NCBI GenBank assembly: GCA_003225055.1
Contig: QIAU01000130.1
Coordinates: 1 to 64,000, forward strand
Direction of reading: 5' to 3'
Length of the DNA stretch: 64,000 nucleotides
DNA from: Acidobacteriota bacterium
GTDB lineage: Bacteria; Acidobacteriota; Terriglobia; Terriglobales; Acidobacteriaceae
The position numbers and the translations under genes are program-made. Under the pieces are notes generated by a model that did not search any database, had not been told where the DNA came from, and worked only from the letters and a program-made list of their open reading frames with translations. This document shows, one piece after another, positions 11,133-35,559 of this stretch (position 1 is its first letter; each line of letters starts with the position of its first letter).

Positions 11133-11304
11133 TCGACTGCGACTGGCAACTCCTCTATCCAGACCACTTGCCGTCAGGCTTCCTGTCTTATTGACACGGC
11201 TCACATCGGGGTGTGACCAACATCCCATTGAGGGCGTCATAATCCAGCTAGCGGCTAGAAGCCAAGGGACTGGGTGTCGGACCTGACGGGAAGGAGAAGT
11301 GACC

Positions 11305-11759
11305 ATGAAAAGCTGGCCAGTCCTGATTCTGGCGCTCGCGTTGCGCACGGCGACCGTGCCGCTTTTCGCATCTCAAAAATCAGAACCGAAATGGGGACGG
11401 GCCCCAGCACGACGTCTCGAAAGAGGCTAAGTTCAAAGGCACTGCGCACGACGTGAAGGACCGGGAATGCCCAAGCAGCGGCCCGGGATGGTTCGCATTT
11501 GATGGTGAAGATCGAAAACAAGATTTACGAAGCTCACCTTGCGCCCACCAAAACCGTCAAAGATTATGAGATTCGCTTCCACCAGGGCGATGAAGTCGAG
11601 ATCACGGGCATCAAGACGATATTTCAAAGTAGCCGCAATCCTGGTGCGCGAAATCAAGCCCGGCACCGGCACTTTCGTCTTTCGCGACCGAAAGGGCAAG
11701 CCGATCTGGCAGACCAGCGCCGCGGGAGGCCGGCGCCAGCCGGCGCCCACCCGCTTTAG
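11305..11759 (+). pseudogene. Frameshifted small exported OB-like protein gene
   Basis: The gene starts properly, with an AAGGAG ribosome site and an ATG at 11305, and encodes a signal peptide (WPVLILALALR) in the first frame. It then needs at least three frame changes to remain homologous. The first is near a five-A run around 11375, leading to KEAKFKGTAHDVKDREC. The second is near a GGG run around 11487, leading to GSHLMVKIENKIYEAHLAP and GDEVEITGIK. The third is near 11625, leading to AAILVREIKPGTGTFVFRD and KGKPIW. Read together these give a small secreted OB-like protein of a type common in this phylum, ending in the usual 'LRD..G.P.W' tail. Indels at short homopolymers could be mutations or sequence errors; three in 450 bases favours decay. 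Confidence 0.7.
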
Positions 11760-14700
11760 TGGTTGTTGCTTTCGCCTGCCGCTTTGGAAGCTGTGGCTTC
11801 GCTCTCTGACGGCGCGATATAGATTGCCGGAACGCTCTCCTTCCTCATCATTTCATTCAATGCCACCAGGTCAGTGGACATGATGTTCTTCCACTGGGCA
11901 ATCAAGGGCGCCACTTCCTGACTGAGCGCGTCGAAGGCCTCGAATTGCTGCTTGGTGGGGGCAGCGTCGGTTTCCACGCTGAACGCCAGACCGTGGAGCT
12001 GTTCGTCGGCCATGTTGGGAAAATTCAGGTTGGCCTCAGAACTTTTCGCGTTCACTTGCAACAGGCGCTCTTCGATGGGAGCCATTTTCTTGTCAATGGC
12101 ATCGCTGCTGTCGGAAATAGGCTTGAAGCGCACTCCTTCCAGTCGGCCGTGCAAAGAGTGAAGCTGCATGCGCGTTTCGCGAATCTCGCGTACAGTGTCA
12201 TGCAGATCGCTGAGCACGCCTCGAATCTTGAGCTCCAGATCGAACTCCTTTTCGATGTCGGCGGCCGGCACGCTAACCCGCGGATCCATCTTCAGTGCCA
12301 GCGGAACGGTGAGGCTCTTCCCCTCCGCGGTAAGACGAACCTGGTAATTTCCCGGAGGCGCCATCGGCCCCTTGGAGCGATACTCGGCGCCCACCTCGCC
12401 GGGCAATTTGTGCGGACCCTGATAACGCAGGTCCCAGGCGAAGCGATTCATGCCGGCTTCGGCGGGAATCTTCTCCTGCGGAGGCTCCAGATCCGGCCAC
12501 TCGGGCGGCGTCTCGGCTTCCTTCTTTTCGACACTGGAGTACTGGCGCACTACCGTGCCTTGCGCGTCGAGAATTTCCAGGGTGACTTCACCCTTGGGAG
12601 CGGTTTTAAAATAGTAGGAAACCAGAGCGCCCCGCGGCGGATTGTGTCCCACCGGCTGGCGGCGCTCGAAGTCTTCAGGCCAGTGCAGCCGGTATGTGGT
12701 ACCCGGCTTGTAGAGGATGACCGGCGCACTCGCGGCCTGGGCGCTGAGCTGCCGTAAGGGCGTGATATCGTCGAGTATCCAGAAAGAACGCCCGTGCGTG
12801 GCAACAACCAGATCATTGTTCTTGACCACCAGGTCGTGGATCGGAGTGGTCGGCAGGTTCAACTGGAGCGGCTGCCAGTTCGCGCCATTATCCCAGGAAA
12901 CGTAGACTCCCGTTTCGGTTCCGGCATAGAGCAGACCCTTCTGCCCCGGATCTTCGCGGACCGCGTGCACGTAAGCGCCGTCGGGAACGCCGTTGGTGAT
13001 TTTCGTCCAGCTCTTTCCCAAATCTGCGGTTCGGTAGATGTAAGGCCTCAGATCATCGAGTTTGTGACAGTCCAGCGCCACGTAAGCGGCGCCGGCGTCA
13101 TGTGGTGACGCATCGATCAAGCTCACCAGGCTCCACTCGGGCATGCCTTTCGGTGTGACGTTGGCCCAACTCTTGCCGCCGTCGCGCGTGACTTCGACCA
13201 GGCCGTCATCCGTGCCAGCCCAGAGCACGTCTTTCTGCGCAGGCGATTCGGCGATCGTGAACACCGTGTCGTAGTACTCGACGCTGGTGTTGTCCTTGGT
13301 AATCGGGCCTCCAGAGGGCTCCTGCTTCGTCCTGTCGTTGCGGGTCAGATCGGAACTGATCGGGGTCCAACTCATACCGTGATCCGTGCTCTTAAACACC
13401 ACCTGCGCTGTCGTATAGACAACATCCGCATCGTGGGGAGAAATCAGGATAGGATGCGTCCACCCCAGGCGGTATTTCATGTCCTTGGCACCGTGGCCGG
13501 AGTAGTCGACGGGCCAGACGGTGATGTCCTGCGCCTGCATCGTGCGCCTGTCCCAACGCGTGAGATATCCATTGCCGGAGCCGGCATAAACGATGTTCGC
13601 GTCGCGTGGATCGGGGACAACGTAGCCGCTCTCGCCGCCACCTACGTCATACCAATGCTGGCGGCCGATGTAGCCGTCGTCGGTGCGGCTGGCAATGCCA
13701 ACCGTGCTGTTGTCCTGTTGTGCTCCGTAGAGGTAGTAGAGGAACTGGTTATCGGTAGCAACGTGGTAGAACTGGGCGGTCGGCTGGTTGTACTGGGTGG
13801 TCCAGGTCTTGCCGCCATCGACGCTCACCGTCGCCCCCCCATCATTACCGTTAATCATGCGCTCGGGATCAATGGGGTCGATCCAGAGGGCGTGATGGTC
13901 GCCATGCGGAGCGGGCAGTAGATTTAGCGTCTTGCCGCCGTCTGTAGAGCGGAACATCCCGGTATTGAGCATGTAGACTGTGTCCACGCTCCTCGGATCG
14001 GCAAAGATGTGCGTGAAATACCAGGCACGTTGAGTGAGACGCTGATCGTCGTTCACTTTGGTCCAAGTGTCGCCGCCATCGTCGGAGCGGTAGAGGCCGC
14101 TGGCGTCCTTCGCTTCCGTAAGCGCGTATACGCGGTTGGAATCGCCGCCCGACACCGAAACTCCGATTCGTCCCATGATGCTGGTCGGCAGGCCCTTGCC
14201 GTCGAGATGCTTCCAGGTGGTGCCGCCATCCACTGATTTATACAGGCCGCTTCCCGGGCCGCCGCTTTCCAGACTCCACGGCGTGCGCCGTACCTGATAG
14301 AGCGCCGCAAATAAGACATTGGGGTTATGTGGGTCGAACACGACGTCAATGGCGCCGGTGTGGTCATCTTTATAGAGAACTTTCTCCCAGTTCTTGCCGC
14401 CATCCAGCGTCCGATACACGCCGCGATCAGGATTGGGTCCATAGGCGTGCCCAAGAGCGGCCACGTAGACGATGTCAGGGTTGCGCGGGTGAACGATAAG
14501 CGCGCCGATATGCTGGGTACCCTTCAGGCCGACGTTTGTCCAGGTCTTCCCGCCATCGGTGGATTTATAAACTCCATTTCCGTATGAGATGTTCCCGCGG
14601 ATACAGGCTTCGCCGGAGCCGACATAAATGACGCTGGGATTGGAGTCAGCCACGGCGATGGCGCCAATCGAGGAAATCGGCTCTTTATCGAAAAGCGGCG

Positions 14701-14953
14701 TCCAGCTGTGGCCGCCGTTGGTGGTGCGCCACACCCCTCCGCCGACTCCGCCGAAGTAAAAGGTCGTGGGATCGCCCGGCACTCCGGCCACCGCCAGAAC
14801 ACGGCCGCCGCGATAGGGGCCGACGGAACGCCATTTCATGCCTTTGAATAGGCTCTCGTTGTATTGCTCGGCGGCCCAGGCACTCTGACAAAATACCGAC
14901 AGGAGAATCAATGCAGCGGCGCGGAGAAACACACACCAACGACTGTGGCTCAT
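11756..14953 (-). CDS. Secreted sortilin/VPS10-type BNR-repeat protein
   Basis: A 1065-residue exported protein with a signal peptide ending near SAWA-AE. Residues 35-700 are beta-propeller repeats with many Asp-box (BNR) motifs: STDGGKTW, TLDGGKNW, SVDGGTTW, SDDGGDTW, TRDGGKSW, NGGHSW. The pattern matches the large 'glycosyl hydrolase / sortilin-like' family abundant in Acidobacteriota and Bacteroidota. Hydrolase activity has not been established for it and no catalytic residues stand out. The C-terminal 300 residues start with an Ig-like/FlgD-type segment (VTLEILDAQGTVVR) and end in helices. The start has AAAGGAG about ten bases upstream. The 3' end overlaps the convergent pseudogene by four bases. 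Confidence 0.88.
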   Translation of the reverse strand: MSHSRWCVFLRAAALILLSVFCQSAWAAEQYNESLFKGMKWRSVGPYRGGRVLAVAGVPGDPTTFYFGGVGGGVWRTTNGGHSWTPLFDKEPISSIGAIAVADSNPSVIYVGSGEACIRGNISYGNGVYKSTDGGKTWTNVGLKGTQHIGALIVHPRNPDIVYVAALGHAYGPNPDRGVYRTLDGGKNWEKVLYKDDHTGAIDVVFDPHNPNVLFAALYQVRRTPWSLESGGPGSGLYKSVDGGTTWKHLDGKGLPTSIMGRIGVSVSGGDSNRVYALTEAKDASGLYRSDDGGDTWTKVNDDQRLTQRAWYFTHIFADPRSVDTVYMLNTGMFRSTDGGKTLNLLPAPHGDHHALWIDPIDPERMINGNDGGATVSVDGGKTWTTQYNQPTAQFYHVATDNQFLYYLYGAQQDNSTVGIASRTDDGYIGRQHWYDVGGGESGYVVPDPRDANIVYAGSGNGYLTRWDRRTMQAQDITVWPVDYSGHGAKDMKYRLGWTHPILISPHDADVVYTTAQVVFKSTDHGMSWTPISSDLTRNDRTKQEPSGGPITKDNTSVEYYDTVFTIAESPAQKDVLWAGTDDGLVEVTRDGGKSWANVTPKGMPEWSLVSLIDASPHDAGAAYVALDCHKLDDLRPYIYRTADLGKSWTKITNGVPDGAYVHAVREDPGQKGLLYAGTETGVYVSWDNGANWQPLQLNLPTTPIHDLVVKNNDLVVATHGRSFWILDDITPLRQLSAQAASAPVILYKPGTTYRLHWPEDFERRQPVGHNPPRGALVSYYFKTAPKGEVTLEILDAQGTVVRQYSSVEKKEAETPPEWPDLEPPQEKIPAEAGMNRFAWDLRYQGPHKLPGEVGAEYRSKGPMAPPGNYQVRLTAEGKSLTVPLALKMDPRVSVPAADIEKEFDLELKIRGVLSDLHDTVREIRETRMQLHSLHGRLEGVRFKPISDSSDAIDKKMAPIEERLLQVNAKSSEANLNFPNMADEQLHGLAFSVETDAAPTKQQFEAFDALSQEVAPLIAQWKNIMSTDLVALNEMMRKESVPAIYIAPSESEATASKAAGESNNH

Positions 14954-15088: not shown

Positions 15089-15541
15089 TCAGGAAGAGAA
15101 ACTCGACGCGCCGCGCTTCGAATAGAGCAACAAGATGGCGGAAAGCAGGGTAATCGTGAAAATGAGGGTTAGGGACGAGAGGCAGAGAATGCACCAGACG
15201 GCCAGGACGAAAGCTTCCACATAGGTGAGATACAGGGCAAATGCCAGGCCTGCCAGAGCGCCCACAAGGAGCATGACCGGCGTTTCGGCCTTCGTTCGAT
15301 AGAGGGTCGCCAACGCCAATAGCGCGAGATATCCGACCACTCCGATCAGGGCTACAGGAACTCCCATCACCACCGAGTACGCGCTGCGGTTGACCACGTC
15401 GCAATTAAAGGTCTCGCCGAAATCGCAGTAGGAGGTCTTGGACTTGGCGTAGTGGTGGGCGAGTGAAACACTCGAGACGGCTATCCCCGCGACTGCGAGC
15501 AGCGCAATCACCCCCAGGATGCGGCGGGAGCGATCGCTCAT
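15089..15541 (-). CDS. Vitamin K epoxide reductase (VKOR) family protein
   Basis: An integral membrane thiol oxidase that reoxidises a periplasmic DsbA/thioredoxin-like partner and passes electrons to quinone. Four or five membrane helices are visible in 150 residues. Both redox pairs of the family are present: the loop cysteines C39 and C47 (YCDFGETFNCDVV) and the membrane CxxC at C117/C120 (WCILC). The Ser/Tyr-containing stretch after the loop (NRSAYS) is also typical. The open frame begins four codons earlier, but the ATG at 15539-15541 overlaps the stop of the upstream thioredoxin-like gene (ATGA). The two are therefore translationally coupled and very likely work as a pair. Confidence 0.9.
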   Translation of the reverse strand: MSDRSRRILGVIALLAVAGIAVSSVSLAHHYAKSKTSYCDFGETFNCDVVNRSAYSVVMGVPVALIGVVGYLALLALATLYRTKAETPVMLLVGALAGLAFALYLTYVEAFVLAVWCILCLSSLTLIFTITLLSAILLLYSKRGASSFSS

Positions 15542-15957
15542 GGCAGGCTGCATCCGGCTTTGTCGCTTATGGCCTCCAGGGGCAGCGTCCCCTCATGCCG
15601 TTCGCCACGAAACTGCCAGGTGGGGAACAGCTTCACCCCGGCATCTTTGCAGCTCGGTTGCTCACCGCGCTGTCCTTTGATGCCACATTCAATGTAGGGC
15701 ACGTATTTGAAGGCGGCCCCGAACATCTCCTTCTGCTCTGCGCAGTGCTCGCACCAGTAAAGCCCGTACATGGTGACATTCTTGCCCGCCAGGCATCTGG
15801 CGAACCCGTCGTAGCGATGCTCGTGCTTGTACTTGGCCGTGAACCCGACGCTGCCGGCCACGACCACGATCACCGCTATGATCGCAATCTTCCTGAGGGG
15901 CAGAGGTTGGGGCTGCTTCTCGCGTTCTTGTTGCCGTCGTCTTCTCGCTTCGGACAT
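15538..15957 (-). CDS. Membrane-anchored thioredoxin-like protein, VKOR partner
   Basis: A 139-residue protein with a charged cytoplasmic N-terminus (1-22), one transmembrane anchor (about 23-41) and a periplasmic thioredoxin-fold domain. The active site is YWCEHC (C69/C72), and a cis-Pro loop is seen at KLFPTWQF. Two more cysteines (YIECGIKG and PSCKDAG) may form a second disulfide. Fused VKOR-thioredoxin proteins are known in other bacteria; here the two parts are separate genes with a four-base overlap. The expected role is disulfide formation in exported proteins. It lies 44 bases downstream of the DAG-kinase-like gene and could be the end of the same transcript. Confidence 0.88.
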   Translation of the reverse strand: MSEARRRRQQEREKQPQPLPLRKIAIIAVIVVVAGSVGFTAKYKHEHRYDGFARCLAGKNVTMYGLYWCEHCAEQKEMFGAAFKYVPYIECGIKGQRGEQPSCKDAGVKLFPTWQFRGERHEGTLPLEAISDKAGCSLP

Positions 15958-16001: not shown

Positions 16002-16904
16002 TTATACTACGACATCCAACGCTGAAGGCAGCACATCGAGAGTCTCACAATGCAAGCTCAGTACTTCGCCGTCCACCATCACGTCGACCGGGCCATCCAA
16101 ATAAAAATCAATTCGACGGACAGCGCGCCGCGACGCCAAGGGATGATTGATGTGGGTTCCGTCGTAGAGGGTCGGCAGATTGCGAATTAGACCCAGCCGC
16201 CCAATCGGCCCCCAGCGAACGTACTCGATGAGACCGTCATTTACTTCCGCTCTGGGTGCAATCATCATTGTGCCGCCGGTGAATTTGCTGTTATTGAACG
16301 TCAGGAATAAACAACGGCGGCGGTCGATCTCAGCTTCACCTTCTGCATGCAAGGGAAACGGGCGACGATCCAGGCGCGCCAGGCAGGTGAAAACGGCCAT
16401 GACATACCCAAGCTGCCCGAGACGATTAAAACGGCGAGCCCGCATGGCGGCGACGTCAGCCGTGAAACCTAAGCTCAGCAAATTAATGTAGTGGAGCACT
16501 CCGCCCTGGTGCCTGAGGCGAAGCACGTCGCAGGGTCGAACTCTTTGAGCCAGCAAAGCTTGAATCGCGTGCTCGACTCCCTGGTCGCTGAAATCCCGCA
16601 GGAACGAGTTTCCCGTGCCGAGAGGTAAGAAGGCGAGTGCCGGTCGGTCCCCGTTCTGGGCGGCCGGGAACAGGCCGTTAACAATCTCGTAAGAGGTGCC
16701 GTCCCCCCCGACCGCCAGAAAACGACGGCATCCGCGGGAATAGGCGTCGCGAGCGAGTTCTGTAGCCTGGCCGGGTGCTCGGGTTTCAACTACCTCGAGC
16801 CGAATGCCGGCGGCGCGGACCTGATCCAGGGCTGGCCCCACCAGTTTGCGGCAGCGCCCGCCGCCAGCAGCCGGATTGACGACCGCCAGCAAGGCGTCGC
16901 TCAC
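16002..16904 (-). CDS. Diacylglycerol/lipid kinase family protein (DAGK catalytic domain)
   Basis: A 300-residue protein of the DagK/YegS/sphingosine-kinase family, which phosphorylates lipid hydroxyls with ATP. Seen: VNPAAGGGR near the N-terminus, the nucleotide-binding AVGGDGT (about residues 63-69), [13 protein letters not shown], the middle block [13 protein letters not shown], and the C-terminal DGEVLSL. The start is a GTG that overlaps the stop of the acyl-AMP ligase (GTGA), so it is coupled to the lipid block. In that context a lipid alcohol or diacylglycerol-like intermediate is the likely substrate. This is inference, since the family also includes kinases of unrelated lipids. Confidence 0.9.
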
Positions 16905-18613
16905 AGCTCCACCACGGCGGAGCTAGGGTCCAGCCGCTTGCGAATTTCCTCCGCCAGCCCAGGACGCCTGATCTTCATCGAAGCGGTGCGGGGGAATTCC
17001 CTGTCCCACAAGACGTAGCCGCCCACTCGCTTGAAATCAGGCAGGCGGCGATTGCGCGCCGCGAGATCGTCGCGAAGGGTTGAGTTGAACTGCTGACTCG
17101 ATTCGGGCCGTAACACGATGATCAGCATCTCGTGCCCAAGGCTCTTTGCCGGCCAGATGTAATGGGCGGCAAGAATGCAGTATTCCTTCACCGGCAAACC
17201 GTCGAAGACGGTCTCAATATCTTCGGGATAGATGTTCTTGCCGCCTTCGGTCACGATCATGTTCTTCTTGCGGCCGAACAGTTGCAGATGCCGGCTGACG
17301 TCAAAGCGTCCGAGATCGCCGGTGAGCAGCCAGCCGTCCACGATGGTCTGCGTGGTGAGCTCGGGATCGTCGAGATAGTGCGACATCACGGTCTTGCTGC
17401 GTACCGCAACTTCGCCGATACCCTCTCGATCAGGGTTGAGAACTCGCAGCTCAACCCCCGGAAGCGGCTTGCCCACCGTGTCCGCACGAAACGGTTTGAA
17501 GTCGTTCAGGGTGAGAGCCGTGCCCGCCTCGGTCAGTCCATAACCGTTCGCCACGGGGATTCCGAGGTCGTAAAAGAACTGCAGGGTTGAAGGCTCGATA
17601 AACGCCCCTCCCGTAAACATTGCGCGCAATTGCCCGCCGAAAGCGCTATGAACCTGCGGTAAAAGTATTCGGCTGAGCCCTACCCGGGCGCGTCTGCGTG
17701 TTAGCAGCCGGTTCAGGCTGACCAGACGATTCAGCAGAAATCTTCTCGACTTCGGCAGTTCTTCGAACTTTGCCCTCAACCCGCGCTCCAGATTCTTGAG
17801 GACCATCGGAACCAGGCTCATGTAGGTGATCTTGTAGCGCGTAAACGCGTCGCGTACGTACTCCGGCCGCAGGGTGCGCAGGTGAACTACACACGCCCCG
17901 CAGACAAACGGCCCGATGAACCCCACCATGAAATCAATCGCATGATTAGTGGGCAGGATGCTGAGGTAACGCACGCCCGGCCAAAAAGGATACCAGGCAG
18001 TCAGGGCCCGGCACTGCTCGAGATAATTCTCGTGGGTGAGCACGCACCCCTTGGGACGGCCGCCGGTTCCGGAAGAGTAGACGATCGAGGCAGGGTCTTC
18101 TTTCTGGCGATTGACGAACGTGGGTTCCCCTTTGCGGCGAAACTCTTCCCAACGGTAGGCGCCGGCCAAATCGACTGCTGCCGGAGCTTCGGTAACCAGC
18201 ACCACCTGCATTTTCGCGTTCTTGAACTCGGGCGAATGCATGATGGCTCGCCAGAGGTAGTATTCGACGACCAGGAACTTCGCCTTCGAATGCGCCAACA
18301 GTTCGAGGTGTTCGGCCGCGCTGAGCTTGTAATCGAGCGGAACCACGACGCCGCCGCCGTAGAAAATGGCGTAGGCGGAAACCAGCCATTTCGACTGGTT
18401 GGTCATGATGATCGCCGCCCGGTCGCCCGGGTTGAAGTCCGCATCCTGCAAGGCTCGCAGCAGACGCCGAGCCAGCCCCTTAAAATCCGAGTAGGTGAGC
18501 CGCAACTTCTCGCGGTCGCGATCCGACTCGATGAGGCAAGTCTCGTTAGGCCAGCGATCAAGCGCATCGCGCAGGGCTGCGCCCAGACACGTGTATGGCG
18601 TCAGGTCCAGCAT
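16901..18613 (-). CDS. AMP-binding acyl ligase (ANL superfamily), copy 2
   Basis: Adenylates a carboxylic acid, probably a fatty acid, and transfers it to CoA or to the ACP encoded 82 bases upstream. Core motifs: P-loop [51 protein letters not shown], and a C-terminal catalytic Lys in TASMKIRRP. The 570-residue length is normal. The open frame begins at 18646, but the ATG at 18611-18613 ([11 protein letters not shown]) is the natural family start; the upstream part is repeat sequence. The 3' end overlaps the DAG-kinase-like start by four bases. Acyl-ACP synthetase is as likely as acyl-CoA synthetase because of the ACP neighbour. Confidence 0.92.
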
Positions 18614-18619
18614 GAAATG

Positions 18620-18684
18620 GCTGATTTTTGATGGCTGATTCCACACGGCGCCTTCCGATCAGAAATCAGCAATCAGAAATCAGC
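18620..18684. repeat. AT-rich inverted repeat (21-base arms)
   Basis: Arms at 18620-18640 and 18664-18684 are complementary at 19 of 21 positions and are built from GCTGATT / AATCAGC words. The repeat fills the gap between the ACP gene and the downstream ligase start. Related words occur at 8281-8381. It could form a hairpin in the operon mRNA. Confidence 0.7.
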
Positions 18685-18694
18685 AATAACAATT

Positions 18695-18955
18695 CTACAA
18701 TCTGGCTTGGATTCTGTCGGCCAAGGTTCGGAAGTCGGAAACGCCCTGCAGTTCGTAATCCGGCAGCTCGACGTTGAAGTGATGCTCGAGCCGGGTAAGC
18801 AGGTCGAGGGCTTGCAGGCTGTCAATGCCGAGCGTCTTGAAGAAGTCCTCGTCGGGCGTAAGCTTCTCGCGCGGCACCTTAAAGTGCTTGCAGGCGAGAT
18901 CCAGGATCTGGTTGAGAGTCTGATCAGAACTTTGCATGTTGCTATAGCTTCTCAT
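18695..18955 (-). CDS. Acyl carrier protein
   Basis: An 86-residue ACP with the phosphopantetheine-attachment motif GIDSLQ (Ser46) at the start of helix II, a long helix I and the acidic loop typical of ACPs. It is not in a fab locus but sits between an enoyl-CoA hydratase gene and an acyl-AMP ligase. It is therefore probably a dedicated carrier for this pathway, loaded by one of the two AMP ligases. Two starts are possible: ATG at 18953-18955 (GGGAG immediately upstream, too close) or ATG at 18935-18937 (MQSSDQT). The longer form is given. Confidence 0.93.
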   Translation of the reverse strand: MRSYSNMQSSDQTLNQILDLACKHFKVPREKLTPDEDFFKTLGIDSLQALDLLTRLEHHFNVELPDYELQGVSDFRTLADRIQARL

Positions 18956-18994
18956 CTCCCGGGAGCGGTTGTCATCAAGTTGCCATCAAGTTTG

Positions 18995-19045
18995 TGTGGG
19001 GACGGGTCTTGACGGGTGCGAGCGGGTCAGAGACCCGCCTCCACA
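18995..19045. repeat. REP-like inverted repeat inside lipid operon, copy A
   Basis: Arms at 18995-19009 and 19031-19045 (beginning TGTGGGGACGGGTCT and ending CCTCCACA) are complementary at 13 of 15 positions. A related 54-base sequence lies at 21641-21694. It sits just after the enoyl-CoA hydratase stop and before the ACP start. Confidence 0.65.
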
Positions 19046-19049
19046 AAAG

Positions 19050-19880
19050 TTAAGGCAAATACGGTTGCGCGTCCCGGCTTTCCACGAATTTCTTGAGTCC
19101 CGCTTCTACCGCCGGCTTCCCAAACAACTCGCAAAAAATGTCGATCTCGCGTTTGAGTTCCTCGTACGGAATTGGTTTGATGAACCGCTTGGCCGTAGTC
19201 GAGGTTTGGCGGTCAAACTTCTTGAGCTGCGCGGCAGTGGAACGTGCGATACGCAAGGATTGCCCTTCGGCGACCGTCTGGCTGACCAGCCCAATCGATT
19301 GGGCTTTAGTGACATTGAAGCTGCGGCCGGTAAGCAGCAGATCGCGTACCACGGCGTTGCCCAGATCCCGCTTCAGGCGCGGGATCCCGCCGAAACCGGG
19401 AATCAGGCCCAGGCGCAGCTCGGGGAAGGCAAAGCGAGCCGCCTTGTCGGCGATGATCAGATCGCAAACCAGAGCCAGTTCGAAGCCGCCGCCGAACGTG
19501 ATGCCGTGGACAGCGGCGATGGTGGTTAAGGGTAACGCGTCAAGGCTGTTCATCACCTGGTGGATGCGTTCCAGGAAATCGCGGGTGCCTCGTGCAGCCT
19601 CGGTTTTAGAAACCTTTTGCGAGCCTTCATAAAGTTCGCGCAGGTCAGCTCCAGCGGAGAAACCGGCCTTCATGGTGCTGTAAAGGATCAGAGCATGGGC
19701 GCGGTCGGTCAGCTCTTCCAGGGCGACTACGAACTTCTCCAGTTCCCTCAGCGTGAGCGTGCCGATCTCGTTGGCAGGCGGACGATGTAGAGCAACTTCG
19801 ACCACGCCCTCGCGCAGTTCCCAGCTCAGGGCTTCGCCTTGAAAATTCGCCCTTGTGCCGTCCCTAGGAGACTCGTTCAT
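19050..19880 (-). CDS. Enoyl-CoA hydratase/isomerase family protein
   Basis: A 276-residue crotonase-fold protein. The oxyanion-hole segments are visible as FSAGADLREL (about residues 74-83) and HGITFGGGFELALVCD. The following FAFPELRLGLIPGFGG carries the Glu found at one of the two usual catalytic positions. Crotonases hydrate, isomerise or hydrolyse acyl thioesters. In this operon the substrate may be an acyl-ACP or acyl-CoA on the way to the reductases. The start ATG (19878-19880) gives a short polar leader before the fold. Exact reaction not determinable. Confidence 0.9.
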   Translation of the reverse strand: MNESPRDGTRANFQGEALSWELREGVVEVALHRPPANEIGTLTLRELEKFVVALEELTDRAHALILYSTMKAGFSAGADLRELYEGSQKVSKTEAARGTRDFLERIHQVMNSLDALPLTTIAAVHGITFGGGFELALVCDLIIADKAARFAFPELRLGLIPGFGGIPRLKRDLGNAVVRDLLLTGRSFNVTKAQSIGLVSQTVAEGQSLRIARSTAAQLKKFDRQTSTTAKRFIKPIPYEELKREIDIFCELFGKPAVEAGLKKFVESRDAQPYLP

Positions 19881-19894
19881 CTCTTGCCTTCTTA

Positions 19895-19915
19895 CCCGGC
19901 ACCTCCCGTGCCGGG
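19895..19915. repeat. Perfect 8-bp hairpin upstream of enoyl-CoA hydratase gene
   Basis: CCCGGCAC and GTGCCGGG arms with a five-base loop, in the 96-base gap between the first acyl ligase and the hydratase gene. No U-tract follows on the coding strand, so an mRNA-processing or REP-like element is more likely than a terminator. Confidence 0.5.
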
Positions 19916-19976
19916 CTGTCTGGTGCCGCGCTTCGGCTGGTTTCCGAGCGTGGCTCGCGAACCATTTCCTCTCGGC

Positions 19977-21620
19977 TCACGACGCCTGCCTCGCCTGGTA
20001 CAGAGCTTCGATTTCATTGTGGAGCCGTGCCGAGATCAGCTCGCGCTTCAGCTTGCCGTTCGCGGTCAGCAGGCCGTTCTCGATGCTAAAGGGCTCGCGT
20101 TGAATGTGGAACGCGCGAATCTGTTTGTAATGCGGCAGGTCCAGGTTTACTTCGTCAATCGCCGCCTGGACTTTTTCGGCGGCCACGTCTCCGGTCACGA
20201 TCGCCGATAAGTATCCGCGCCCGTTCCCTACCAGTACTGCTTGCTGGGCGCCCGGGATATGCAGCCGCAGCTTGTCTTCGATCGGCTCAGGGGCGATATT
20301 GTGGCCCGAGCCCAGGATGATCAGGTTCTTGATGCGGCCGATAATGCGCCAATTTCCTGCCTCGTCGACCTCCCCCTGGTCGCCGGTGTGAAACCAACCG
20401 TCGCGCAACGTCTTGGCGGTTTCCTCGGGACGATTCCAATAGCCAGGGAAGATATTCGGGCCGCGCACGATGATTTCGTCGTTCTCTCCCAGCTTCATTT
20501 CGATTCCGCTGATCGCCGGGCCTACGCGGCCGGGCTCTACATGTTGAGGATGATCCAGGGTACAAATCGCCGTGGTCTCGGTGAGACCATAAACCTGCAA
20601 CACCGGAATCCCCAGCATCATGAAAAAAAGTTGGGTCTCAAGATTGAGCGGCGCCGACCCCGAGATCAGCGCTTTCAGATTGGCCCCGATCATCTTCTTG
20701 CGGATCGCGGGAAAGACCGCTGAATTCGCCAGGCCCAACCAGATGGAATCCAACCAGCCTGACCGATGCTCGTGCTTGCGAGTCCAAGCAGCTTTGGCGC
20801 GGCTATAGATCGCCAAGACCAAGCCGCCGGTTTGCCAGAGTTGCTCGTCGACGGCTTTGCGCATTCGCTCCAGCAAGGCAGGGACATTGAGGAAGTAATC
20901 GGGAGCAACCGCGCGCATATCCGCCGCAAGTTTCGAAAGATCGGTATTCAGCGTGAGCAGGCTGCCGCGCAATAGACAAGTCAGCAGCATGATCCAGGAA
21001 CCGGCAAAGCAGAACGGCAAGTAATGAAATACCCGGTCCTGACCTTGCTTCTCGCCTCCCAGCAAGTCGAGCCGCCGGGAGGTGCAGCCCAGCATGTGGC
21101 TGATGTTCCCGGCGTTGAGAACTACGCCCTTACCTTCGCCCCCGCTTCCGGAGGTATAAATGATCGTGATCGGGTCGGAATCGGCGAGTTGGACTGTTGC
21201 CGTTGTCTCCGTTTGCGCCGTAAAGATCTGTTCAAAGAGATATTGGTTTTGTGCTTCCGGCCACGGCTCGATGATTCCCCGACGAAGGCTGTCATCTCCG
21301 CAACAGATGAGCGACGGCGACGAGTCCTTCATCATGGCTACAAGCTCCACCGGAGCTTGGCGGGCATAAAGAGGAACGACGATCAGCCCTTCCGCCATCA
21401 TAGCCAGGTCCATGGCCACCCAGCGGATGCTGTTATGGGCCACGAGAGCGCAGCGGTCGCCTTTCTTCAGACCGCGTGTGGAGAGGAAGCCGCGGGCCTT
21501 GCCGACAAGTTCCAGGAGTTCACGACCTGTGACCGAGATGGTCCGGCCGTCACCAATTTCCCGTAGGACTGGCCTGTCAGTCCTTTGCAAGCCGGCGAAG
21601 ATGTTTTCGAGAAAACTCAT
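19977..21620 (-). CDS. AMP-binding long-chain acyl ligase (ANL superfamily), copy 1
   Basis: A 547-residue acyl-adenylating enzyme. Motifs: P-loop IIYTSGSGGEGKGVVL, YGLTETTAICTLDHP, GWFHTGDQGEVDEAGNW and GRIKNLIILGSGHNIAPEPIE, and a C-terminal TANGKLKRELI containing the catalytic Lys. The P-loop has E-G in place of the usual x-P before the Lys-Gly, a small deviation. The architecture resembles long-chain fatty-acyl-CoA synthetases. The frame is open to 21695, but the ATG at 21618-21620 (MSFLENIF) is preferred, because the upstream part is the REP-like sequence. Together with copy 2 it suggests two different acids, or loading of CoA and ACP separately. Confidence 0.92.
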   Translation of the reverse strand: MSFLENIFAGLQRTDRPVLREIGDGRTISVTGRELLELVGKARGFLSTRGLKKGDRCALVAHNSIRWVAMDLAMMAEGLIVVPLYARQAPVELVAMMKDSSPSLICCGDDSLRRGIIEPWPEAQNQYLFEQIFTAQTETTATVQLADSDPITIIYTSGSGGEGKGVVLNAGNISHMLGCTSRRLDLLGGEKQGQDRVFHYLPFCFAGSWIMLLTCLLRGSLLTLNTDLSKLAADMRAVAPDYFLNVPALLERMRKAVDEQLWQTGGLVLAIYSRAKAAWTRKHEHRSGWLDSIWLGLANSAVFPAIRKKMIGANLKALISGSAPLNLETQLFFMMLGIPVLQVYGLTETTAICTLDHPQHVEPGRVGPAISGIEMKLGENDEIIVRGPNIFPGYWNRPEETAKTLRDGWFHTGDQGEVDEAGNWRIIGRIKNLIILGSGHNIAPEPIEDKLRLHIPGAQQAVLVGNGRGYLSAIVTGDVAAEKVQAAIDEVNLDLPHYKQIRAFHIQREPFSIENGLLTANGKLKRELISARLHNEIEALYQARQAS

Positions 21621-21640
21621 TGAATAAGCAAGAAAGAGCG

Positions 21641-21694
21641 TGTCGGGCCCGGGTCTTTGCCCGGGCGGGGTCGGGTCGGAAACCGGCCTCCCCA
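21641..21694. repeat. REP-like sequence inside lipid operon, copy B
   Basis: A GC-rich element beginning TGTCGGG and ending GGCCTCCCCA that can be aligned with the 51-base element at 18995-19045 over most of its length. It contains CCCGGGTC...GCCCGGG complementarity. It fills the gap between the pyruvyl-transferase-like stop and the acyl-ligase start. Confidence 0.55.
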
Positions 21695-23140
21695 TCAGTT
21701 CGCCACTCGGGCCGGCTCCTCGGTCGCGGACACCTCATATTTCTCCAGCAGCCGATCGAGGTCGGGGCCGAGCGGCGGCAAGTAGTCTTCCCAGCTCCAT
21801 TCTCCATGGCGGAGGGGAAATTCAGGATACCTGCGCTGCAGTTCCTCTTCGAAATACACCCCCATGCGGGCCATCGTCTTAAGATTCTTGGCCACGGTCC
21901 GGCCAATTCCGGTCGCGATCCGGTCGCCTTCGGTCGCCAGTTTCTCGAGTGCGACCACCAACTTATCCTCGAGATCAGGATCGTCGACATTGATCACGAG
22001 ATCGGGGTGACCGCGCTCCCGCATCAGGTTCTGAATGCGCTCATCCATGGTGACACCCGCCGAAGGCACCAGCGCGGGCATCGAGGTCACAATGCCGTGA
22101 TAGCGCGACGAAACCATCCGGTGGCAGGCCCGCAGGATGCTGACGACCTGGTACATGTCATAGTCACCGGAACTGAACACCGGCACGCCCCCGAGCTTTT
22201 CGGAAATGAGGTGGCAGGCGCGAGCATCCAGCCGCTCGGTGGCGACCAGCACGACGAACACCTTGCTCCGTTGGCGGTACGCAGCTACTCCCTTGGCCAT
22301 AGCGGTGAGATAGCGGTCGAAGGCGAGGTCCACCTCAGGCCCGGATTTGTGAAAATAAATCGTGCGATAGTGGCTGTCTCGGTAGGCTCCCGTTGTGCTG
22401 CGCGCCACATATTTCGCCACCGACGGCTTCACCGGCCACCAGAACGGGTTAATGGGACAGACCACCAGAACCGGCGTGCGGCCATTCCAGCCGGCATCGG
22501 TGAGAACCTTCTTTCCGTAGTCAATCGGGAGAGGCTCGAAGGTCCAAGCGGTGTCGGTGCCCAGTTCGGTGGGCACACCGAGCTCGCGCAGAATGTTGCG
22601 GGACTCCACGTTGCGCGTGATGATCAGCGATTTCTTGCAGTAGCGGGCACACATTTTCGCGATCATCGGGTCCATGTGGCCGGCTTCCGAGCCGTAGGCG
22701 ATAGAGAGTTTGTTCTGCGCCGCCGCAATGCCCAGCGAGCCAATCATCATGTTGGTCAGAGCGTTGGCGAACTTACTCTTGAACGCCGATCCCTCGCAGG
22801 CAACGACCCCATGATGCTTCGGTACTTCGCGTGCCAGAAACGGCGGGTAGACATCGGGCAGATGAACCTGGCTTGTGCCATGGAAGTAGCCGCGGGAGAA
22901 ACCGAAATTCTGCGACAGCACACTGAATTCAACTTTATCCGCCCCCAGGATGTGGCGAATCTGTCGCAGCATTTCTTCGACCCGCACATCCGATCCCGTA
23001 TTGCGCGTGCCGTTATAGCCGGCAAACAGGAGTTTCAACTTCTCGCCAGGCTGCCAGGGTTTGCCTTTCCCCAACATCCAGCCTAACTTTGCGCTTTCGA
23101 TCAGGCCACTGACCCAAGCCTCCAAAACAAAGTCCATCAT
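21695..23140 (-). CDS. Polysaccharide pyruvyl transferase family protein
   Basis: A 481-residue protein of the WcaK/AmsJ/CsaB type. Known members move pyruvate from phosphoenolpyruvate onto a sugar as a ketal. Seen: [20 protein letters not shown] near the N-terminus, the C-terminal [19 protein letters not shown] block with the conserved RxHG-type signature (RYHG), and a two-domain GT-B-like layout. The ATG at 23138-23140 overlaps the TGA of the upstream SDR gene and has AGGAGG nine bases before it. Its place between lipid genes suggests that the end product may carry a pyruvylated or otherwise modified headgroup. Family members with other functions exist, so the donor is uncertain. Confidence 0.85.
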
Positions 23141-24273
23141 GCGGCGGAACCTCCTACGGCAGCCGTGGGCCAATCCTGGTACTTGTAGGTGAAATGATTC
23201 TCGCGGCTGAATTTCAACAAGGGATAGCTGTATTGCGAAAACGGAATCGGCTTGCGACCGAGCTCCGTAGTAACTCGGGTGTTATCGAAAACTGTGTTCC
23301 ACACCAGGTACGGCATGAAAACCTTCATTAATGACGCGCCATAGCCAAGCGAACCCTTCCAGTTGGAAAGCACATTTACGGTTGAGGTGAATGGCCTTTC
23401 CAGGCCGGACATGAAGATCGGGCGACGCTGGTTCTGCGCGGCAGCCAGGGATTCGGTGAGCTGGCGAAAAGTCTCGGAGCCGGTCCCGGCGGAAAGATGA
23501 TACGTGTCATGGCGCGGCTGATCTTTCTGGTGAAGGGTTGCAATGGCATCCGCCACGAAGTCCACGTTGACGATGTCCACCTTGTCGTCGGGCCGGAATG
23601 GCAACACTGGCAATCGGGCGAGAAAGGCGAATGCCTTCACCATGTCGAACTGGGTGGTGGCGGCGTAGCGGCTGTCGCCGAGTACAATGCTGGGCCGGAA
23701 CAGGGTGCGTGGAACATCGGGCAGCAGCTGCCGAATCATGTGCTCACAAAACTTTTTCGTGCGGGCGTAGGGATCGTAATCGGATCGTTCCCAGTCGATT
23801 GCCTTGTCTTCCGTCACCACTTCGTTTTCTCGCACTCCGGCGACGGCAACGGTTGAAACATGGCTGATACGGCGCAGCCCATGGTGATTATTCGCATGGA
23901 CTCCCAGCTGTACAACTTCGAGCGTGCCGCGCAGGTTGGTGTTGAGGCAGGTCTTTTCCGACTTGCGATTCAGCGAAGCCGCGCAGTGGACAATCGAATC
24001 GCTGCTGTAGACCAGGCGGCCATATTCTTCATCGCTCAGGCCAAACTGCGATGCGCTCAGATCGCCGCGGAAAATATGGATGCGCGAGCGCAGGTAGCTC
24101 TCAAATTTCGGAAAATCGAGATGCAACTGTAAGGCGCGCCACAGACGCACCTCGGCTTCATGAGCGTCTTTCGCGCGGACCAGAACATTCAGCGGGTCGC
24201 GATAACGTTCCAGCAGATTCGCGGCCACATGGGCCCCGATGTATCCGCTCGATCCGGTCAGGAAAATCGCCAC
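23137..24273 (-). CDS. SDR/thioester-reductase-like NAD(P)-dependent protein
   Basis: A 378-residue extended SDR of the thioester-reductase/NAD-binding_4 (male-sterility) type. The N-terminus carries the Rossmann motif [11 protein letters not shown] (residues 6-16). [10 protein letters not shown] and [11 protein letters not shown] (Y..xK dyad) give the catalytic set, and [10 protein letters not shown] the family's specificity region. Such enzymes reduce carrier-bound acyl thioesters to aldehydes or alcohols. The GTG start has GGAG upstream and overlaps the end of the FAR fusion by 16 bases; the 3' end overlaps the pyruvyl-transferase gene. Nucleotide-sugar epimerase is the alternative reading, weaker because of the lipid neighbours. 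Confidence 0.82.
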
Positions 24274-26606
24274 GTTGCTCCGTTCGTTCCCGTCATCTCG
24301 CCGTCGGTCTCGGTGGCTGGGGAAAGCTGAAAACTGCGCGGCGGCCTGGCTTCCAGCGGCCGGCCTTCGATGAGCGGATAGGTCCAGCGGCGCAGGGCTG
24401 GAATGTGGATGTCAATCCAGTACTCCCACCAGTCGATCGAGCGGGTGTCATAGCCGAACTCGGCCCGCTCCTCTGGAAGCAGGGCGTGCGAGAGGTCCTC
24501 GACATGCTCCGCCACAAAATCATGCTCGTTGTGCAGGATGAAGGGCTCGAAAAGCTCGATGAGTTTCTCGACCTTTTCCAGATTCCGCTCCGCTTTCACC
24601 AGCGGCGGGCGCTTCAGGGGCAGCGGCGCCATGACCCGCTGGATGGACTTGATGATCGCCTTCTGTGCCGGCGCCGACATCCGGTTGTATCGCTCCTTGG
24701 AAACGGGAATCGCGTCAAAGCGGAGGCGCAGCCAATATTCCAGGCTCTCCTGCGCCCGATAGTGCTTGCGGTGGGCGAGCGAGGTTAATTCGATGGAGCG
24801 CCGCATGTCGCAGGGATTTGTGACGGAGGTCGCCAACTGGTACAGCCGGTCGTGGCGGCGCTCGATCACGGCCGCCGCCACCAAAGTCATGCCGCGGCAG
24901 ACTGAGTCCACGGGAATGATGTCGAGGCGCTTGCGCTCATTGCTGGGAAGCTGGCGAAAATAAGTTCCGAGTAAGTAAGAAAGCGAAGCCGAAGTGTTGA
25001 TGCCCTCGTTCCATCCCGGGAAAGGTTTTCGCACCGAAGTCTCAACGATGGCCGGCCGGACAATGGCTACCGGGAGGCCGCTGCTGTATTTTGCGATTAA
25101 TGACTCGGCAAGACTTTTCGTGAAGGTGTAAGTATTTGGCCACCCCAAATCCTGGGCGCGCTTCATGCCGGCTTCGACCAGACGATTGCGCAGCCAGCGA
25201 ATGCGGTTCTTACGGATCTGATTTTCCAGCGCCGTGCCGTGCAGATCCTTGGCGGCGTGTTCCTTGCCCAGCGCCTCGCTGCGCAGCTCAGCGGTGGTCT
25301 CTGGGCTCTCCGCCAGCTTCTCGGCCCCGCGGATCAAATCATGCAGCGCCTGATGCTCGCGTTCGGCGTCGAAGTCAGCAATACCGGCCGGCGTGTAGTT
25401 GGGACGCAGCTTTTCGCTGACCCGTCCATCGCGGGCTCCGGCCACGTAGCAAGTGGAAAGATGGATCAAGCCGGCGTGGTCGGACCTGCGCACAAAATCC
25501 AGGACGTGCATGGCGGCATCGACGTTGGTAGCCAAGGCATCGCGCAGGTCGGGATTAAAGTCGGTCAAGCCGGAGCTGTTGACAACCAGGTCCAGCCGGC
25601 CCCGCAGGCGGGTGGCAATCTCCGGGGACAGTCCGAGCCCCGCCTGGCCCGCATCGCCTTCAACAACGTCCACCCGTTCCGCGAGAAATCGTGCCAGACC
25701 GGCGCCATAGCGCTCATGAAGGGGGTCAAAGACCGGGGATTCCTCGACCATCTTTTCAAAACGCCGCAGCGCGGGATTGGACTTTTGCCGCCGGATGAGC
25801 AGGTAGATTCGGCCGACTTCCGGCAGGTCAGAGAGAAGGTTGACCAGCCAGACCTTTCCTATGAAACCGGTCACGCCAATCAGCATGATGTGCCTGCCCG
25901 TCAGGGTGCTGCGTACCGACAGCGGATGGGGCTGGCGGCGGCTGTCAAAGCGCACAAAGGGACGGTTCAGGACCTGCTTTTGTCGTTCCGCCGGGAAGCT
26001 CGCTCGATTCAGGGCTTCCCTGCCGGCAAAGCCGAGATCACGCACCAGTTGCTCGGGTGAGCGGCGCCCGTTGGGGTCAGCCTCGCTGATCCAGGCAAAA
26101 AGCCCACGGGGACGAATGACCGGAGCGAGCAGGCGTCCGGTCGCAATGCCATCGCGAAACTCGAGCCGATTGGCGATAAACCCGTTGACACCGAGATACT
26201 TGGCCAGCGGGCGCATTACATGGTCCAGCACCTGGCTGACCAGGACCACGCTAGCCCCGGTGTTCACCAGTTCCCGGAGCTGGCGCACGCCCTCCTGTTT
26301 CAGGTAAGGCTTGAGCTTGTACTGGAAGTATTCCTCGCCTAGCAGGTCGAGCCGGTCCCGGCTGACTCCGCGCAAGACAGTATGTACAACTCTGGTGGCA
26401 AGCACGCGATGCAGGCCGTAAAGAATCGGCCGCAATGCCGCCATCAGCAGGACGAGGCCCCGGCGCACCCAGCGCTCGAGAAACGTCTGCGCGTTCCAGG
26501 TGAAAAAGGCGACCGGCTTGACCGTGGTGAGGTCAAGCAGGCTGCCCTCTACGCGCCAATACACACGTGGGGCAAACTGGCCAGAATTGTGAGTTGGCGG
26601 TTGCAA
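24258..26606 (-). CDS. Fatty acyl reductase with N-terminal degenerate HAD domain and FAR C-terminal domain
   Basis: First gene of the lipid block; 782 residues in three parts. (1) Residues about 12-180 resemble HAD-IB phosphatases, with [18 protein letters not shown] and [15 protein letters not shown]. The nucleophile motif DxDxT is replaced (WRVEGSLL), so this part is probably not catalytic. (2) Residues 238-590 are a fatty-acyl-CoA reductase Rossmann domain, with GVTGFIGK (244-251), [14 protein letters not shown] (382-390) and the YTFTK dyad (493-497). (3) Residues about 650-740 look like the FAR_C 'sterile' domain. Alcohol-forming FARs reduce acyl-CoA or acyl-ACP to fatty alcohol. The start is TTG at 26604-26606 (a stop lies two codons upstream); GTG at 26564 is possible. 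Confidence 0.85.
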
Positions 26607-33094: not shown

Positions 33095-35224
33095 TTAGTC
33101 TCCGAGGACTGGCTCTTCCACTTCCGGCTTCGGCGTAATATCGTGATGGCCGTTGGCCGGGTTCGCCAATGCGTTCAGGGGGATGAAACCGTTCGCAGAG
33201 ACCGGTTGCTTCTCTTTCAGGACGACCTCGCGGTAGAGCTGCGCCATGCGGGCGTTGTAGGCAGGATCGTTCTTCTGCTTCCGATCGCGCGCCCGGAGTT
33301 TCTCTTCGCGGGCGTTCTTGGCGATGCCTAACCTGTCAAGGTCGCGCTGCTCTTCCAACGTGACAATGTCGTCCCGCAAGTAGAGCGAGTGCTCCTTATT
33401 TTCCAGGTTCACGCGCTTTCCTCCGGCGAAGATTTCGTGACGGCCATGCTCCTCGTACCACTGGGTGAGTGTGGCGGTCATATGCATCTTCTCGATGATG
33501 TTGCGCCAGCCCACACCCGTGTTGTACGCACAGAAGGAAATTTCGCCTTCCTGCGTCGCGTAGGGAATGATGCACTGCTCGGTGCGGCGGAAGTCGTAGT
33601 TGAACAAGTCCTGGAACCACATGCCGGCAATGAACAGGAAATTCCAGCGGTCCTGCCGGCGCTTCATCACATCCTCAAGCGTGCGATCCGGGCCGACCTT
33701 GCCGTAGTTGCGCCCTGTGGCATTGAAGTTCTTATCGAACTTCTTCAGCAGGTCGATCAGCTTGAAATGGGTCGGCGCCTGGAACGGATCGTAGTTCTTC
33801 ATCAATGCCAGCGCCATGCCGACGATAGTGAGGAACTTGCCGCGGGCCGCGTCGTTCACCTTGGCGATGTCTTTGGCGAGTTGGTCACCATCGAGGAACG
33901 CGGTGACGGGAACTGCTTCCTTGGTCTCCTTATCGATCATCACGGCCATGCCGGTGCCGCAATTGGGGTGACAGCCGCAGCTCAACTGGCCCCAGTTGTT
34001 GTTGCTGTCGTTGGCATGCATGACGTCCGCCCAGTCGGAGAACGTGCTCATGAAGGAAATGGGGAACCAGTCGCGGGCGGGCTGGCCCAGACCGGTCTGA
34101 TCCTTCACGTCATGAGCCAGGTGCGACAGCGTGTAACGCTGGGCCTGGCGGCGTTCGTCGGTGATCGCTTCGTCACGGCCGGTGAAGCTCACCGGCTGGA
34201 ACGAGAGGAATCCGATCTTCTTCGGATTGTCGAGCGCGAACTTAATGATGCGGCCGACCTGCTCATTATTGATGCCGTTCACAATCGTAATAACCGGCAC
34301 GATTTCCACGCCCGCCTTGTGCAGGTTGTCGATAGCCTTCAGCTTGACGTCGAAAAGATTGCCCACCTTGCGATGGGCGTTGGCGGCGTTACCGATGCCG
34401 TCGAACTGCAGGTAGGCATACCGCAAACCTGCTTCGGCCGCCTGCTCGGCGAACTCCAGACTCTTGGCGAACTCGATGCCGTTGGTCGCCGCCTGAACGC
34501 TGTTGTACCCGACTTTGCGGGCATAGCGCACGGCGTCGAGAAAGTACGGCGAAAGCGTAGGTTCGCCACCCGAGAACTGCACCGACATCTGACGCCTCGG
34601 CTTGATGGTGATGGCGTTGTCGAGCATGGTCTTTATGTCTTCCCAGCTCAACTCATGTACGAAGCCCACCTGGTTAGCATCCATGAAGCACGGGTCGCAC
34701 ATCATGTTGCAGCGGTTGGTGAGATCGATCGTGAGCACCGCCCCGCGACCATACTTCACGGTGCTGGAACCGTGGTTATGCAACTTCTCGTCATTGTGGG
34801 CGCGGATGTCGCGGCCGGGAAAAACTTCTTCGAGGTGGCGCGAGAAATCGGTGTCGACCGACATCAGGTCTTCGAAATGGCCGTGCTTGGGGCAGTCCTT
34901 CACCATCAGGATCCTGCCGTCGCGTTCGAGGATTTGCGCCTTCACTTCGCCGACCTTTTCATTGAGCAGGATTTCGTAGGGCAGCTCGCCGTCGAGAATC
35001 TGCTGACGAATTTCCGGAACACATTTCGGGCAGAGCGAGTCGGTGGTGCGCGGCCAGCCGAGCGGCGGTTTGGACTTTTCGTAGGACTTCAACAGCGGCT
35101 TATCCGACCACCGCGGCTTGGGCGACGGGTTGGGATGAATGCTGTTTAGCCTCTTGAAGACCATCCACGCACCTGTGGCGGCGATGGTTACAGCTCTCTC
35201 CACGTATTTAACCGGCTTGTACAT
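33095..35224 (-). CDS. Radical SAM enzyme of the Tes/Mss (tetraether / membrane-spanning lipid synthase) type
   Basis: A 709-residue protein. The core has the radical SAM motif CNMMCDPC (Cys172, 176, 179) and SGGEPTLSP. The N-terminal part has a rubredoxin-like set, LCPKC (C65/C68) and CPKHGHFEDL (C111), before the core. Further cysteines occur as SCGCHPNCG (C416, 418, 422) and later C551 and FCAYNTG (C565). This arrangement matches archaeal tetraether synthase (MJ0619 type), which joins two lipid tails at their methyl ends, and the bacterial homologues proposed to make iso-diabolic acid, a hallmark acidobacterial lipid. A short hydrophobic stretch (about 10-25) may anchor it to the membrane. 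The chosen ATG is at 35222-35224; the first listed codons upstream are probably not translated. Another MJ0619-type reaction is possible. Confidence 0.8.
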   Translation of the reverse strand: MYKPVKYVERAVTIAATGAWMVFKRLNSIHPNPSPKPRWSDKPLLKSYEKSKPPLGWPRTTDSLCPKCVPEIRQQILDGELPYEILLNEKVGEVKAQILERDGRILMVKDCPKHGHFEDLMSVDTDFSRHLEEVFPGRDIRAHNDEKLHNHGSSTVKYGRGAVLTIDLTNRCNMMCDPCFMDANQVGFVHELSWEDIKTMLDNAITIKPRRQMSVQFSGGEPTLSPYFLDAVRYARKVGYNSVQAATNGIEFAKSLEFAEQAAEAGLRYAYLQFDGIGNAANAHRKVGNLFDVKLKAIDNLHKAGVEIVPVITIVNGINNEQVGRIIKFALDNPKKIGFLSFQPVSFTGRDEAITDERRQAQRYTLSHLAHDVKDQTGLGQPARDWFPISFMSTFSDWADVMHANDSNNNWGQLSCGCHPNCGTGMAVMIDKETKEAVPVTAFLDGDQLAKDIAKVNDAARGKFLTIVGMALALMKNYDPFQAPTHFKLIDLLKKFDKNFNATGRNYGKVGPDRTLEDVMKRRQDRWNFLFIAGMWFQDLFNYDFRRTEQCIIPYATQEGEISFCAYNTGVGWRNIIEKMHMTATLTQWYEEHGRHEIFAGGKRVNLENKEHSLYLRDDIVTLEEQRDLDRLGIAKNAREEKLRARDRKQKNDPAYNARMAQLYREVVLKEKQPVSANGFIPLNALANPANGHHDITPKPEVEEPVLGD

Positions 35225-35559
35225 GTCTTCTCGCTTTCCTGTGTGGGAAGCCGTCGGACACAAAAAACTGTGCCTCTGTTCCCCTGGGTTGAACCTGCGG
35301 ATCGAACCCGAGACTCCTACTCTCTATCCCTGGGTGCTCGAGTGGCGGATAGGCCACTCCCGCACTTGTGCTCTCTACGACCTATGCTATTAAGGCCAGG
35401 AGGCCAGGGCAGCAAGAACCCAACGAAAGGCCATAAATTGGGGTCTAGTGGCGTGATTTTGCATTGTATGGGTCTAAGTTGTTGAAAAAGAAAGGGGTTT
35501 ACACGGACGAGTTGCCGATTCCCATTCTTGAATGTGGCGATCATGGGCGCAATCGGCAA
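35225..35559. other. Leader region of the radical SAM gene
   Basis: About 335 bases between the radical SAM start and the end of the alcohol dehydrogenase gene. It contains a 7-bp hairpin (35340-35359) and a short direct repeat GGCCAGGAGGCCAGG near 35393-35407. Part of it resembles a tRNA T-loop, but no cloverleaf forms. Confidence 0.4.
35340..35359. promoter_or_regulatory. Hairpin in leader of radical SAM gene
   Basis: GAGTGGC and GCCACTC arms with a six-base loop, about 115 bases upstream of the radical SAM start. It could be an operator or an mRNA leader structure. Confidence 0.35.

Follow-up and report, generated by a model that had tools for sequence, protein, structure and literature searches.

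The window analysed here is a stretch of 64,000 nucleotides (positions 1 to 64,000 of contig QIAU01000130.1, assembly GCA_003225055.1) from an Acidobacteriota bacterium of the family Acidobacteriaceae. Its minus strand carries, at 33095..35224, the coding sequence of a Tes-like radical SAM protein of 709 aa plus stop, referred to below as class A. The frame is open for 709 codons, from the ATG at 35224 to the stop codon at 33095-33097. This ATG has a purine-rich stretch upstream (AGGAAAGCGAGAAG), which makes it unnecessary to assume a longer frame from the TTG at 35263. All five cysteine motifs reported in an earlier note on this DNA (LCPKC, CPKHG, CNMMCDPC, SCGCHPNCG and FCAYNTG) are found in the translation. 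Orthologues across the phylum are 58-87% identical to the protein, indicating that the ORF is a genuine conserved gene. A promoter and terminator scan around the gene gave no signal above chance. A 586-codon open frame runs antisense to it (33389-35149, plus strand) and most likely arose as a side effect of codon use in GC-rich DNA. The protein begins with a helix (residues 5-29, PVKYVERAVTIAATGAWMVFKRLNS; 35138..35212, minus strand) that has no counterpart in archaeal Tes and is a possible membrane-surface anchor. The GAW-containing stretch of this helix is similar in a class A paralogue (P0003, as SAVW) and in a protein of the derived class C (P0002).

The Tes-type radical SAM fold proposed in the earlier note is borne out by comparison with known structures. 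In a phmmer search of the PDB, the window protein hits GDGT-MAS (MJ0619, 7tol) with an E value of 4.9e-65, with MoaA far behind (8e-6). With an AlphaFold2 model built from 53 window or genome-contig sequences (mean pLDDT 80.8, pTM 0.82), Foldseek and VIA-align place 7tom/7tol at the top by a wide margin (Z 44.3 and rmsd 2.8 A over 478 aligned residues for 7tom, with the next structure at Z 19.6; Foldseek TMt 0.87 against GDGT-MAS). The best NCBIfam model is that of tetraether lipid synthase Tes (NF045702), at 321.5 bits. This is under the curated equivalog cut-off of 450 bits, which a class B control (L088) passes with 576.6 bits. Further matches of the protein are the Pfam HMPTM zinc ribbon and, at 210.2 bits, the NCBIfam TrsS model (NF045646); MJ0619 was itself formerly called a pterin methylase. 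On these grounds class A could act on a substrate other than a lipid, as a radical SAM protein of a TrsS-like or another HMPTM type, but this is very improbable: the Tes model scores higher (321 against 210 bits), the TrsS score is far under its cut-off of 490 bits, GDGT-MAS is the clear top structural match, and there are lipid genes among the neighbours.

Metal ligands were mapped by native numbering from the positions given in the MJ0619 structure paper (PMC9433317). The rubredoxin-type site (CX2C...CX2H) is present in the window protein as C65, C68, C111 and H114 (34883..35032, minus strand; C9, C12, C33 and H36 in MJ0619), followed by the radical SAM motif C172-x3-C176-x2-C179 (34688..34711, minus strand). 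Ligands of the C-terminal auxiliary [4Fe4S] cluster are C422 (in HPNCG), M535, C551 and C565, together with Y555 (33530..33961, minus strand). In the alignment, M535 corresponds to the labile Met439 of MJ0619, which PMC9433317 names as a ligand of this cluster, and Y555 to Tyr459. The cluster cysteines of MJ0619 are probably C338, C455 and C470, to judge from conservation. The site of the archaeal N-terminal auxiliary cluster (C73, C77, C80 and a His) falls at residues ~143-160 (34745..34798, minus strand). Here the [4Fe4S] motif CxxxCxxCxxH is missing, with K/H/S/K at the aligned positions, no cysteines, and a stretch four residues shorter than the archaeal counterpart. Thus the archaeal Tes architecture that the earlier note read from the cysteine layout holds at three of four sites, rubredoxin, radical SAM and C-terminal, but not at the N-terminal cluster. 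The check that it proposed, alignment of the key auxiliary cysteines, comes out the same way, with every ligand of the C-terminal catalytic cluster in place and the N-terminal cluster absent.

Throughout class A, the rubredoxin, radical SAM and C-terminal cluster ligands are kept, as are the equivalents of Met439 and Tyr459, with the exception of L017, which departs at the rubredoxin His. The SAM-loop residues Q268, S271, R275, Y195 and D199 are also kept across the class. According to PMC9433317, the S-C intermediate sits on the C-terminal cluster of MJ0619, and M439A and Y459 variants retain robust activity; class A thus keeps the catalytic part. The N-terminal cluster would have to be dispensable or replaced in class A. 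It is also missing from a subclade of archaeal Tes comprising Methanomassiliicoccales and related MAGs (L118, L120, L123, L128, L132, L135 and L144-L146), where its loss is independent of that in class A. Its absence in class A is therefore no argument against Tes-like chemistry, and this cluster is not strictly defining for Tes.

In an IQ-TREE phylogeny of 75 proteins, in which bootstrap support is not fully settled, a 100/100 branch splits class A and class C from class B and archaeal Tes. The window protein lies in acidobacterial class A, across this branch from archaeal Tes and from the acidobacterial homologues that exceed the Tes cut-off. Placement in a clade with a different proven reaction, which would have spoken against that note, did not arise among the families compared. 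The class A stem is long (1.13 changes per site), and the class comprises two main groups and minor ones, with class C nesting beside the second group. Identity to a Methanosarcina Tes is 31% for the window protein and 41-43% for class B; to archaeal Tes, class A is 31-32% and class B 41-44% identical. Published Tes homologues of Edaphobacter aggregans (32%), Koribacter (42%) and Solibacter (40%; PMC8941075) would, by these identities, belong to class A in the first case and to class B in the other two. Solibacter usitatus is without iso-diabolic acid (PMC10087280).

Tes-type proteins match at E <= 1e-60 in 163 of 297 sampled Acidobacteriota, and 20 of the 163 carry class B only, as assigned by E-value (1e-73 to 1e-101). 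Class A is found in ~143 of the 297, and class B in 37 of 396 genomes. In the family of the window, 130 of 150 genomes match the Tes-type query (104 of 110 among high-quality genomes), and in most of them class A is the only Tes-type protein. One genome (G323) has class A and class B ~11 kb apart. The window genome itself (G000) has three Tes-type proteins, namely the window protein, a class A paralogue 75% identical to it, and a class C protein, after which scores fall to 50 bits. The paralogue (L174, G000:C123) is located near the chromate-transport genes ChrA and ChrB and has no lipid neighbours. The 80 matches listed in a genome-contig scan are class B and archaeal Tes, except for two class A (L143, L148), with no Bacillota or Thermotogota locus among them. 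Plasmid searches returned haloarchaeal, mycobacterial and other distant matches, and no Mss.

The class C proteins (P0002, G000:C214, L003:1434-3143; L060, G357:C159; L061, G354:C61) keep the rubredoxin and radical SAM sites. However, they carry the substitutions C338->H, C455->S and Y459->V, with C470->S in G000 only, so that Tyr459 and either two or three cysteines of the C-terminal cluster are missing. With these residues gone, Tes-type coupling through the C-terminal cluster would not be easily possible. In G000 and G357, class C adjoins trwB and trwC genes and so probably rides a conjugative element. Since class C is nested in class A and no longer has the catalytic cluster, at least one change of function has taken place within the clade. 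The same observation, with paralogues sharing one genome, indicates that the scaffold has been re-used, and it would fit a role of class A in modifying lipid tails other than by joining, for example through cyclisation, cross-links inside a single lipid or support of methylation. The long class A stem and the Tes score under cut-off would fit this role too. Such a role is improbable, as class A keeps Met439 and the complete set of C-terminal cluster ligands, no use of this cluster other than coupling is known in the Tes fold, and iso-diabolic acid is abundant where class A is mostly the only Tes-type gene (PMC13274423, PMC8941075).

An elb-like operon occupies 16005-26606 of the window, on the same strand as the Tes-like gene. 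In order of transcription, it encodes a HAD phosphatase-fatty acyl-CoA reductase (FAR) fusion (24261..26606), an NAD-dependent epimerase/thioester reductase resembling ElbE/ElbA (23140..24273), a polysaccharide pyruvyl transferase-like protein conserved in the operon (21698..23173), a first AMP-binding acyl ligase (19980..21695), an enoyl-CoA hydratase/isomerase family protein (19053..19880), an acyl carrier protein with a DSLQ phosphopantetheine site (18698..18955), a second AMP-binding acyl ligase (16904..18646) and a YegS-type diacylglycerol/lipid kinase (16005..16904), all on the minus strand. In the elb system, ElbD combines FAR, ACS, ACP and acyltransferase, in that order, and its partners are ElbB (HAD) and the epimerases ElbA and ElbE (PMC9131029). 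FAR, ACS, ACP, HAD and epimerase functions are all present in the window operon, and no AGPAT-like acyltransferase domain as in ElbD was found within it; it thus appears as an unfused elb-like set without the acyltransferase. The nearby ether/fatty-alcohol pathway of the earlier note is accordingly there on the same strand, 6,491 bp downstream of the Tes-like stop codon, in an association that recurs in other genomes. However, six genes intervene (OMP, cupin, an ABC pair, a sigma factor and a 149-aa ORF), and the operon is a separate transcription unit. A VKOR-family gene adjoins the lipid operon (15092-15553), and a VKOR-thioredoxin-rhodanese fusion is found near class B in G323 (L173:12315-13970). 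At the far end of the operon is a gene for a 1065-aa sortilin/BNR-repeat protein (11759-14953); two relatives (L172, L178) have homologues of it in the interval from class A to class B.

A relative, G023, has a class A orthologue 83% identical to the window protein. There, class A is the first of nine co-directional genes, ~150 bp from HAD-FAR, and is followed by HAD-FAR, epimerase, pyruvyl-like, ligase, hydratase, ACP, ligase and kinase genes. In a genome of another family (G132), 4 kb separate class A from HAD-FAR, and an AMP-ACP-acyltransferase fusion lies alongside. In a third family (G095), class A is transcribed divergently from a set comprising PlsY, HAD, a LarA-like gene, FAR, epimerase and a lipid kinase. 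Class A in G132 is also flanked by two radical SAM genes (L160:7380-8420 and 11139-12809), one resembling B12-binding radical SAM families; these are possible tail methylation or ring enzymes. Among 42 genomes with both genes, four are closely linked against ~0.23 expected by chance. Two of the four, G000 and G023, belong to one family, and the limit on distance was chosen after the data were seen. Without the window genome, three remain (G023, G132 and G095; P ~0.0015). The presence of class A beside ether-lipid gene sets in G023 and two other families thus indicates a link that is more than chance.

An obligatory linkage is rejected, as several operon-bearing genomes have the operon and class A on different contigs (the close relatives G084 and G210, and the f70 genomes). 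The link is recurrent, not obligatory. Most class A genes do not adjoin lipid genes, and, apart from the lipid genes of a few genomes and some scattered others, no neighbour is conserved across all of them. Full-length HAD-reductase is found in nine genomes, against class A in about half of those sampled. This imbalance, with the separate contigs in G084, G210 and f70 genomes, is what would be expected if class A coupled tails into ester-bound iso-diabolic acid only, with the elb-like operon unrelated and its closeness in the window accidental. We regard this as unlikely, though with an appreciable share of the probability, since G023, G132 and G095 are linked where chance predicts ~0.2, and the G023 run of nine co-directional genes starts with class A.

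Elsewhere in the window genome, a double PF01869 occurs together with DUF2229 at two Ger/PlsA-like loci (L193:5014-8595 and L194:4731-9814). One encodes a 1194-aa protein with two PF01869 domains plus DUF2229, and the other is a split set. Glycerol ester reductase Ger is reported to have this double-activase layout (PMC13274423), and the two loci are candidates for ester-to-ether conversion. With an elb-like operon in the same genome, there are therefore two possible routes to ether bonds.

Class A is probably a tail-coupling synthase of the Tes/GDGT-MAS fold, likely giving an iso-diabolic-acid-type core. This reading follows from the predicted fold, the cluster ligands and the position of class A as the only Tes-type gene in most genomes of a group rich in iso-diabolic acid. 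Subdivision 1 and 3 acidobacteria contain 20-40% iso-diabolic acid (PMC13274423), and Edaphobacter aggregans, a producer of iso-diabolic acid and brGDGTs, has a single Tes homologue of 32% identity (PMC8941075). Counted against coupling are the ~32% identity, which fixes neither substrate nor reaction, the change of function within the clade (class C), the mostly absent lipid neighbours and the missing N-terminal cluster.

On the model of MJ0619, 5'-deoxyadenosyl radicals generated at the radical SAM cluster would abstract hydrogen from the methyl group that ends one of the lipid tails. The resulting carbon radical would be held by a sulfur atom of the C-terminal [4Fe4S] cluster, and a second radical on the other tail would attack the held carbon to form the C-C bond. 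Electrons would probably be supplied by the rubredoxin iron. Iso-branched C15 chains on two glycerolipids are the likely partners in the coupling, and would give the iso-diabolic (C30) core common in the phylum; an iso-C15 tail has the same end as a phytanyl chain (PMC8941075). Where class A adjoins the elb-like operon, the coupled tails would probably be ether-bound, via the operon and/or Ger/PlsA-like genes elsewhere. The analysis shows the fold (as a predicted model), the ligands, the clade and the linkage; substrate, product and the order of coupling and etherification are what we infer from these comparisons. At its fullest, the interpretation is that class A is a distinct, phylum-wide, three-cofactor family of iso-diabolic-acid synthases that evolved apart from class B (perhaps for brGDGTs) and, in some lineages, acts within an unfused elb-like operon to make ether-bound membrane-spanning lipids without the N-terminal cluster. 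We hold this composite tentatively, at a little under even chances.

No proof of an acidobacterial coupling enzyme was found in the literature searched. Branched GDGTs, built on iso-diabolic-acid-type chains, serve as fossil thermometers. The present analysis distinguishes two classes among the acidobacterial relatives of Tes, class A, which is common and has no N-terminal cluster, and class B, which is rarer, and it names candidate partner genes for ether-bound products. Genomes of the G023 type, with class A and ether-lipid genes in one co-directional run, are a suited test system.

Compared with known systems, class A has in common with archaeal Tes/GDGT-MAS (MJ0619, MA_1486; 7TOL, 7TOM) the fold, rubredoxin site, CX3CX2C cluster, C-terminal cluster with labile Met, Tyr459 and SAM-binding residues. 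The window protein differs in its identity of 31-32%, separate clade, lack of the N-terminal [4Fe4S] motif and score under the equivalog cut-off, and in an extra N-terminal helix, a ~20-residue insert in the rubredoxin domain and a C-terminal extension. Class B, the bacterial Tes-proper matching the published Koribacter and Solibacter homologues, shares the fold family, catalytic cluster and phylum with class A, sometimes only a few kb away. However, class B has all four metal sites and groups with archaeal Tes, and L088 exceeds the Tes cut-off. The Edaphobacter aggregans homologue would match class A in identity level and family distribution. Mss of Thermotoga and Thermoanaerobacter couples fatty acids tail-to-tail and is reported to share the Tes catalytic architecture (PMC13274423); Thermotoga mainly makes omega-1 coupled diabolic acid (PMC8788747). 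With elb/ElbD of Myxococcus xanthus (PMC9131029), the window operon shares the FAR, ACS, ACP, HAD and epimerase parts in unfused form, but it has HAD fused to FAR, no acyltransferase found, and added genes for a pyruvyl-transferase-like protein, an enoyl-CoA hydratase and a lipid kinase.
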